A DNA stretch of 64,000 nt from Alloprevotella sp. OH1205_COT-284. GTDB taxonomy: Bacteria; Bacteroidota; Bacteroidia; Bacteroidales; Bacteroidaceae. Below the pieces are notes generated by a model. It ran no database searches and had not been told where the DNA came from. It was given only the letters and a program-made list of their open reading frames with translations. Positions 14,491-62,278 of this stretch are shown here, piece after piece (positions within the stretch are counted from its first letter, which is position 1; the number at the start of each line of letters is the position of its first letter). The stretch covers positions 1 to 64,000 of the forward strand of contig NZ_RQYI01000003.1 in NCBI RefSeq assembly GCF_003859795.1, read 5' to 3'. Both the position numbers and the translations under genes were made by a program.

Positions 14491-14553
14491 CACTACCTTT
14501 GAGGTAGGCGTTTCTACCTCAGAGGGAGAAAAGTCTACCCCCGACCGGGCGAA
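14491..14553. repeat. 21-bp tandem array beside element copy A
   Basis: Three units (14491-14511, 14512-14532, 14533-14553) with CTACC at the same place in each. The first contains the palindrome CTACCTTTGAGGTAG. The array ends 9 bp before the CG-rich tract of element A. Confidence 0.75.
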
Positions 14554-14562
14554 AAAACTCTT

Positions 14563-14955
14563 CTCTCGCGCACGCGCGCGTATCCCTGTATGATTACTTT
14601 TTGCTTTCACTGCCTTCGCAAAACGAGGTAATTCGATGATTGTCAGCCGTTTTCTTGCGAAGGCAAGTGAAGGCAAAATGAAAAGTCCTTTTGCAAGATT
14701 TTGAAAATCAGTTGATTGTTGCGTTTTTTTGCTTTCACCACCTCGCAAATGGACGTATTTCGTGCTGCAATGGCGGAAGGAGGTGAAGGCAAACCCCTCG
14801 TTTTGCCTTCACCGTATTGCGTTGATTTTCAGATGTCTAAAAAATACAAAAACCTTTTGCCTTCACTTGCCTTCGCAAGAAACCGTCTGATAATCATCGG
14901 ATTAAATCGTTTTGCGAAGGCAAAACGACAAAAATAAAAAAATAGGGGAGAAAAC
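14563..14955 (+). repeat. Structured dispersed element, copy A
   Basis: The order is: CTCTCGCG followed by alternating CG-rich sequence (14563-14580); hairpin 1 (14598-14678); middle hairpin (about 14730-14793) with an extra half site to 14812; hairpin 3 (14855-14926); and a tail of A-rich sequence then GGGGAGAAAACG. Hairpins 1 and 3 have 37 bp between TTCGC and GCGAA (14620-14656 and 14877-14913). Their centres are 257 bp apart. The right flank GCGGTTTCATCGAA is shared with copy B. The stems are made of tandem GYGAAGGCAR decamers. No protein start, ribosome site or conserved reading frame explains it. Confidence 0.9.
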
Positions 14956-15114
14956 GTTGAAAAGAGGCGGTTTCATCGAAGGCGCGACGGAGCGGAACGC
15001 GGAGGTCGGGCGGCGGAGCGGTCAGTCGGGAAGTTGAGGCTCGAAGCACTGTCGGAGTGAACGGGGGCGTCGCACGAGTTGTTTTTTTTTTGACAGGTGG
15101 ATTGCCTACAAAGA

Positions 15115-39900: not shown

Positions 39901-40295
39901 ACGTTTTCTCTCCCTGTTTTTTTGTTTTTGCCGTTTTGCCTTCGCTAAAATGATTATCTCTTTGAAGATGAGAGTGTTTCTTGCGAAGGCAAGTGAAGGC
40001 AAACGCTCTGTCGATTTTGCGAGTGCTTGAAAATCAACGTAATACGGTGAAGGCAAAACGAGGGGTTTGCCTTCACCTCCTTTCACCATTGCGGTGCGAA
40101 GAACGGCCATTTGCGAGCCGGTGAAGGCAAAAAATCGCGTCAATCTGTTGGATTTCAGTGCGTTGTGAACGTTGTTTTTAATTTGCCTTCACTTGCCTTC
40201 GCTAAAAACGGGTTGATAATCATGCGTTTATCTCGTTTTGCGAAGGCAGTGAAAGCAAAATGTAATGACAAGGAGCGCGCGCGTGCGCGCGAGAG
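39901..40295 (-). repeat. Structured dispersed element, copy B (inverted)
   Basis: This is copy A in reverse: hairpin 3 at 39933-40003 (37-bp centre 39946-39982), a middle module at 40045-40132 with GAGGTGAAGGCAAA half sites, hairpin 1 at 40182-40260 (37-bp centre 40203-40239), and the alternating CG-rich tract at 40275-40295. Centres of the outer hairpins are 257 bp apart. Its left end shares GCGGTTTCATCGAA, read in reverse, with copy A. The centres differ in sequence from copies A and C, yet lengths are identical. Confidence 0.9.
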
Positions 40296-59171: not shown

Positions 59172-59571
59172 CTCTCGCGTACGCGCGTGTACGCGCGCGC
59201 ATTCCCTTATGTTGTATTTTTGCTTTCACTGCCTTCGCAAAATCGACCAACTTGCTGAATTTCAGGGAGAAAATTGCGAAGGCAAGTGAAGGCAAAACGA
59301 AAAATGAAATTGCAATACGTTGACAATCAGATTGATGAACTCGATTTTTGCCTTCACCTTCTCCGTTTTACCCTTTCTACCCCGATAATTGCGGAAGCAA
59401 GTGAAAGCAAACAGTGGGTTTTGCTTTCACCGGAGATGGCTGACAATCAGACTGTTATTTTTCTGTTTTTCATGTTGCCTTCACTTGCCTTCGCAAGTTT
59501 CTCCCTGAAATTCAGCAAGTTGGTCGATTTTGCGAAGGCAAAACAGCGAAAAATAAAAATATAGGGTGAAA
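59172..59571 (+). repeat. Structured dispersed element, copy C
   Basis: CTCTCGCG tract at 59172-59200 (here 28 bp of alternating purine-pyrimidine), hairpin 1 at about 59221-59297 (37-bp centre 59239-59275), middle module at about 59347-59431, hairpin 3 at about 59475-59543 (centre 59495-59531), A-rich tail and GGGTGAAAACG. Centres of hairpins 1 and 3 are 256 bp apart. The centre of hairpin 1 is the reverse complement of that of hairpin 3 at 36 of 37 positions. Total length is as in copies A and B. Confidence 0.92.
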
Positions 59572-62203: not shown

Positions 62204-62278
62204 TGGGCGCTGACGGATTCGAACCGCCGACCCTCTGCTTGTAAGGCAGACGCTCTGAACCAGCTGAGCTAAGCGCCC
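62204..62278 (-). tRNA. tRNA-Val (anticodon UAC)
   Basis: Cloverleaf on the minus strand: acceptor GGGCGCT/AGCGCCC, D arm GCTCAGCTGGTTCAGAGC, anticodon loop CTTACAA in stem TCTGC/GCAGA, T arm GGCGGTTCGAATCCGTC, discriminator A. The 3' CCA is not encoded. The 75-nt length is normal. Confidence 0.95.

Follow-up and report, generated by a model that had tools for sequence, protein, structure and literature searches.

Some bacteria of the genus Alloprevotella carry about 40 to 55 copies per genome of a composite DNA site, and this family of chromosome sites is real and extends well beyond the three copies in which it was first noticed. The copies keep a minimum distance from each other, crowd on the origin side of the chromosome, share many positions between two species and are conserved in short arms that show no covariation. 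The explanation we favour, and consider rather probable, is that each element groups together binding sites for a putative protein that organises the origin-proximal chromosome, either in the manner of Noc and SlmA or by setting domain boundaries. The window, i.e., the whole stretch of 64,000 nucleotides that was analysed, belongs to the genome of Alloprevotella sp. OH1205_COT-284 (G000 below), a draft of 2.3 Mb in 93 contigs.

The first-pass annotation described three copies in the window, A, B and C, with a common order of parts, and both the positions and the order were confirmed when the window was read again. Their features are:

14563..14955, + strand: element copy A
14563..14583, + strand: copy A alternating purine-pyrimidine CG tract
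14599..14621, + strand: copy A double arm, TTTTGCTTTCACTGCCTTCGCAA
14657..14677, - strand: copy A double arm, inverted
14694..14718, no strand: copy A dyad CAA-N5-TGAAAATCA-N5-TTG, matching the consensus form
14724..14739, + strand: copy A single arm, middle module
14773..14793, - strand: copy A double arm, middle module, inverted
14801..14814, + strand: copy A single arm
14823..14831, no strand: copy A half-dyad TGATTTTCA
14857..14878, + strand: copy A double arm, TTGCCTTCACTTGCCTTCGCAA
14880..14904, no strand: copy A dyad around CTGATAATCA
14914..14926, - strand: copy A single arm, inverted, then A-rich tail
14966..14978, + strand: GGCGGTTTCATCG, directly 3' of copy A
39901..40295, - strand: element copy B, 80% identical to A
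40238..40260, - strand: copy B double arm
39981..40002, - strand: copy B second co-directed double arm
59172..59571, + strand: element copy C, more divergent, about 69% identical to A
59218..59240, + strand: copy C double arm
59475..59496, + strand: copy C second co-directed double arm

As had been noted, all three copies lie in gaps of more than 1 kb (about 1.2-1.4 kb between long open reading frames taken as genes), the gap of copy B being less sure because one of its neighbours has no Pfam match. When copy A was compared with its own genome, it returned itself (E 1.7e-205), copy B (2.7e-89) and many further matches; 40 of the 76 candidates were scored, so that the count of 55 copies given below is a lower bound. 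The 22-base motif, with up to 3 mismatches allowed, was found at 59 places in G000, and its reversed control at none. Among 56 fetched places, 55 align to copy A, 54 of them over at least 378 columns and one (L049) over 305; the remaining place (L062), at a contig end, fails to align. Non-self identities of these copies to A or C range from 66.7 to 88.5%. The copy number of three was thus corrected to at least 55 in the source genome, and pattern searches of related genomes revealed four more Alloprevotella carriers. Many copies share sequence beyond the ends assigned to the element: GGCGGTTTCATCG follows on the 3' side in 34/55 G000 copies and a CTACCTC-GAGGTAG palindrome precedes on the 5' side in 40/55 (mismatches allowed in both counts). 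The palindrome of copy A is at window positions 14498-14530, and upstream palindromes were seen in G010 too. Copy C (59172-59571) and the copy L055 are 88.5% alike, and their two halves are inverted matches of each other (71% across some 330 bp), which looks like copying by conversion. The view that this intergenic repeat family is unlike those described has held: it matches no Rfam family and no plasmid, phage or viral sequence, and no description of it was found in the open-access literature searched.

Carriers are confined to 5 of 58 genomes of the genus, namely G000, G003, G007 (oral taxon 473 F0040), G010 (Lung230) and G036; the other 53 have 0-5 arm-like places each, the same level as in controls, and the element is therefore not essential to the genus. 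With a stricter pattern, 399 genomes of the family in 30 genera were searched, and matches occurred only in G000, G003, G007 and G010; this pattern misses diverged arms, since G036, which is among the 399, scored 0. Among the matches listed in a wider genome scan was one Blastocatellia metagenome-assembled genome, which was taken as a chance match because the motif stands alone there, unaccompanied by another arm, and directly follows a reading frame that opens with ATG.

The G000 element, about 390 bp long, consists of the CG tract, seven placements of the motif TTTTGCYTTCAC-TTGCCTTCGCAA on both strands, and the A-rich tail, and between the placements lie dyads of the form CAA-N4-CTGAAAATCA-N5-TTG. 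The motif positions are nearly invariant, and many of the positions between them vary freely. The arm motif is a direct repeat at 9-10 bp, and it occurs in inverted pairs. In G003, G007 and G010 the element is symmetric, running from a CG tract through a spacer, arm, interior, inverted arm and spacer to a second CG tract. All four relatives, G036 included, have inverted arms of about 22 bp next to alternating CG tracts. The arm is TTTTTGCTTTCACAACCTTCAC in G003 and G007, TTTTTGCCTTCACTGCCTTCAC in G010 and TTTTGCYTTCACTGCCTTCGC in G000; that of G036 is more variable, about TTTTRCYTCCAYTGCTTCCAC. Such a species-wide change of the arm suggests either co-evolution with one factor or concerted evolution. 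The alternating CG tracts are 13-27 bases long in the 54 G000 copies measured and 10-29 bases in 77 G003 tracts, as against 3-13 in flanks. The idea that the tract is kept purely for its alternation was tried and found weak: orthologs show a transition/transversion ratio that goes up from 0.57 to no more than 1.02, and indels or N-gaps put several of the pairs compared out of register. Gaps of Ns flanked by a duplicated arm were seen inside three G007 elements (L071, L077 and L036) and are likely an assembly artefact at repeats.

The inverted arms were originally read as hairpins, and one of the roles proposed for the element was a structured RNA. A structured RNA or a cruciform-forming DNA, in which the stems themselves are the functional part, would explain why the arms can pair: when 42 defined pairs were scored in 54 G000 copies, all of the 55 but L049, pairing was possible in 95.0% of cells, compared with 37-50% when the partners are slid. 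Pairing is, however, equally 95.0% when partners are shuffled among copies (250 of 500 shuffles reach the observed value), and covariation is 0.072 as observed against 0.071 as shuffled, in a test whose power is limited because many pairs barely vary; a further test of this kind agreed. The covariation term of RNAalifold amounts to -0.69 of -34.55 kcal/mol. The hairpins are inverted copies of one motif without the compensatory change of RNA stems, and there is no sign that stems as such are kept. In the relatives the arms stand 140-650 bp apart around drifting interiors, and at the gathering threshold no curated Rfam family other than a tRNA was found in the whole window. With no covariation, no fixed gene orientation and symmetric forms in relatives, the RNA role is not supported, and stems as the functional part are regarded as very improbable. 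The sole Rfam match is a tRNA gene at window positions 62204-62278 on the - strand.

Conservation is concentrated in the arms. In 16 ortholog pairs between G003 and G007, the arms agree at 97.7% of 736 ungapped bases, compared with 79.7% for the interiors and 79-81% for the flanks. A second set of 25 pairs (one further pair was skipped, and some are misregistered) gave 98.2% for the arms, 36 of 50 being identical, 72.7% for the interiors and 68.3% for the flanks. The arm values are biased upwards because the arms were found by a pattern with up to 3 mismatches. For about 29 of 42 G003 elements, an element is present at the corresponding place in G007; 2 are ambiguous, 8 have no usable partner in the compared DNA, and 3 have no counterpart, the nearest G007 element being 1.4, 3.8 and 6.7 kb from the predicted place. 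At least 6 G007 elements have no G003 counterpart, and the sites therefore turn over. The candidate places found in an empty-site search between the two genomes lie on rearranged and possibly mis-scaffolded DNA. Deep conservation of position was considered and set aside: some neighbour gene within 2.5 kb is common to 15/55 G000 copies and G003 elements, and to 14/55 and G010 elements, figures that may reflect chance.

The elements are never close to each other. Among 170 spacings in five genomes the smallest is 5.6 kb, with the lists of G036, G010 and G007 being partial, so that closer neighbours could exist there. For these counts, arms within 0.8-0.9 kb were merged as one element; lone arm-like matches with 4-6 mismatches (e.g., G003 1,155,170 and 1,980,754) and one-mismatch pattern matches unlike the arm (G003 631,556, 850,137, 1,366,574 and 52,218) were excluded. 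The 43 gaps on the G003 circle have a minimum of 11.5 kb (uniform-circle P 0.0002), and none of 3 x 20,000 density-matched simulations reached this floor, about 11-13 gaps below 11 kb being expected. In G000 the minimum of 34 within-contig spacings is 9.1 kb, where 12 spacings below 9 kb are expected and 0 of 20,000 simulations reached the floor. The minimum in G036 is 5.6 kb for 26 spacings among 40 elements, again reached in 0 of 20,000 simulations; this list is partial because 84 arm-like places were counted and 57 listed, against 40 elements used. The observed minima are 9.7 kb for 38 spacings in G007 and 6.4 kb for 30 spacings among 46 located elements in G010 (partial list).

Within elements, the distance from arm to arm is 164-698 bp in G003. 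In G036 it falls into clusters at 180, 190, 201, 210 and 222 bp; the G007 clusters are at 202, 213, 224, 235, 296, 316, 338 and 360 bp. After each cluster had been collapsed, and with the period fixed at 10.5, sizes up to 400 bp gave phasing P values of 0.0014 (G036), 0.0024 (G007), 0.11 (G003) and 0.07 (G010), and a combined P of 0.0008 without G007. The test was prompted by the sizes themselves and the 400-bp cut was our own choice; for sizes up to 800 bp the phasing weakens (G003 0.24, G007 0.10). Helical phasing of this kind fits two arms that are bridged.

The layout on the chromosome is biased towards the origin. Of the 43 elements located in G003, 42 lie at 0.437-2.055 Mb; the other, which is complete, is at 2.550 Mb. 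The parS consensus is matched perfectly at 1.621 Mb and with one mismatch at 1.568 Mb, in agreement with the GC-skew minimum at about 1.7 Mb; the GC-skew maximum at about 0.25 Mb marks the predicted terminus (53 sampled stretches). The dnaA gene is elsewhere, at 1.08 Mb (C6:1,082,352), some 0.5 Mb away from both the parS-like matches and the skew minimum. Sites like parS also occur on element-bearing contigs of G000, G007 and G010. From origin to terminus, the G003 counts per fifth are 14, 20, 3, 5 and 1, which places 34/43 elements in the two fifths nearest the origin, and in none of 100,000 uniform simulations was the mean distance to the origin as small. The widest interval between neighbours measures 0.65 Mb (P 0.0006), and a 1.145-Mb arc with the predicted terminus holds 1 element, where the simulated minimum for such an arc is 5 (3,000 genomes); the arc is only nearly empty because of the element at 2.550 Mb. 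The bias is lopsided: elements extend for 0.46 Mb to one side of the origin, with a single further one at 0.96 Mb, and for 1.16 Mb to the opposite side. G003, like G000, is a draft whose order may be wrong in places.

G000 has the same layout. For its element-free contigs C2 and C24, 15/15 gene matches are in the near-empty G003 arc, at 0.09-0.38 Mb (five stretches read, with matches from three of the five), compared with 1/28 for element-bearing loci (Fisher 1e-10). Element loci of G010 gave 6/63 matches in this arc, and contigs G007 C2, with no listed element, and G010 C2 gave 5/5 and 6/6. Some results are less in line with this layout: G010 C2 has one likely element, three stretches of G010 C3 read without an element gave 1/16 matches in the arc, G007 C16 is empty at 100-220 kb yet matches G003 at 0.90 Mb, and G007 C17 gave 9/13 matches in the arc.

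These results bear on the two other ways in which such a family could be understood. A non-autonomous mobile element of MITE or REPIN-like type, another role proposed at first, would take the arms as transposase sites, the spacing as target immunity, and the origin bias as the outcome of gene dosage or of a preference in insertion. In keeping with mobility, there are dozens of scattered copies that end in inverted arms, elements have been gained or lost between G003 and G007, and only 5 of 58 genus genomes are carriers; two copies are 88.5% alike, by which copies may still arise. Yet the roughly 29 of 42 positions common to two species whose flanks are only 68-81% alike, the spacing floor, and interiors that drift while the arms stay conserved speak against it. 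No internal gene was seen in the 164-698 bp between G003 arms, 54/55 copies are near full length, and a phage or plasmid origin was rejected after plasmids, phages and viral contigs had yielded no match. The RAYT-type domain PF01797, the sole transposase domain searched, is absent from G000, G003, G007 and G036; one was found in G010, and it is present in 5/6 non-carriers searched. REPINs are described in PMC3116915 as random in extragenic space. A REPIN or REP-RAYT identity was rejected with PF01797 lacking in four of the five carriers and the placement non-random in both spacing floor and origin bias. Mobility is thus disfavoured, and we consider it unlikely.

A local role in gene regulation, as terminator, promoter or mRNA-end element, would agree with the finding that 54/55 G000 copies overlap no credible reading frame and that convergent gaps (13) outnumber divergent ones (6). 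All contexts occur nevertheless, with 23 tandem gaps besides these among the 42 G000 copies for which both neighbours were called (13 lacked a neighbour call), and a gene-orientation rule tried on the G000 copies was discarded. The neighbours of the window copies, which include an ABC transporter protein, a YccF protein, an aminotransferase, a glycosyltransferase and a GNAT protein, have no function in common, and local regulation predicts neither the spacing floor nor the origin bias. We rate it as very unlikely. Among the three roles put forward by the first-pass annotation, a nucleoid-protein site is the best fit.

In the favoured explanation, the element would be a cluster of double-stranded DNA sites for a putative sequence-specific protein or protein pair, which would recognise the arm, where two half-sites lie on the same strand at a distance of about 9-10 bp. 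The inverted arms, two in the relatives and several in G000, would be bridged, and the adjacent alternating CG tract might turn into Z-DNA or take up supercoils. Since the elements are at least about 6-11 kb apart, crowded towards the origin and scarce around the terminus, they would most likely set the origin half apart, either for segregation and nucleoid occlusion in the manner of Noc and SlmA sites or as domain boundaries; the protein, the bridging, the role of Z-DNA and the cellular function are what we infer here. A stronger version is more tentative, possible but in our estimate doubtful: a dedicated sequence-encoded chromosome-partitioning system of paired, helically phased sites with Z-DNA-prone tracts, at least 6-11 kb apart on the origin side and held away from the terminus, all copies of which co-evolve with one DNA-binding protein. 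If true, this would amount to a system for domain boundaries or division occlusion with no described counterpart.

Among known systems, domain boundaries and the nucleoid-occlusion sites that avoid the terminus come closest in their apparent way of working, but by sequence the elements qualify neither as Noc/SlmA sites nor as REPINs or structured RNAs. There are about 70 Noc sites in B. subtilis and 24-52 SlmA sites in E. coli, under-represented in the terminus region, and no spacing floor like that of the Alloprevotella elements is described for them in the portion of PMC4726725 consulted. The G003 elements likewise are dozens of dispersed sequence-specific sites that avoid the terminus; they differ from the single short palindromes of those systems (14 bp for Noc) in being 200-400-bp composites with paired arms, CG tracts and species-specific arms. 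Topological domains of E. coli and Salmonella are about 10 kb, near the spacing floor of the elements, and bridging proteins can insulate loops, but the sections of PMC10642903 consulted describe no dedicated repeated boundary sequence, and the Alloprevotella elements are mostly confined to the origin side. REPINs with their RAYT transposases are similar as inverted doublets of a short conserved intergenic sequence in dozens to hundreds of copies, and differ in that the Alloprevotella elements are non-randomly placed, have positions common to species and lack a RAYT-type domain in four of five carriers. The matS sites of MatP are likewise dispersed sites of a chromosome macrodomain, and their layout, inside the terminus domain, is the reverse of that seen here. 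A literature search on Bacteroides nucleoid occlusion and FtsZ returned matches that, judged by title, concern other subjects. The spacing floor, the origin bias and the conserved arms make it testable what sets the borders of domains of about 10 kb in bacteria and how Bacteroidota keep division off the nucleoid: element DNA is a ready bait for the putative protein, and the element positions predict sites of contacts or occlusion.

Two minor observations concern what surrounds the elements of G003 and G007. Another short intergenic repeat, with runs of AAAACGTCGGAGATTTT and AAATGTCCGACATTTTT type, recurs around them in both genomes (e.g., L253, at about 1.712 Mb; L042-type DNA). Near the origin, gene-order breakpoints between the two genomes fall at G007 elements that are absent from G003 (L099, L106 and L147, G007 C14:72-128 kb, versus L251-L253, G003 1.656-1.716 Mb), where mis-scaffolding is possible.
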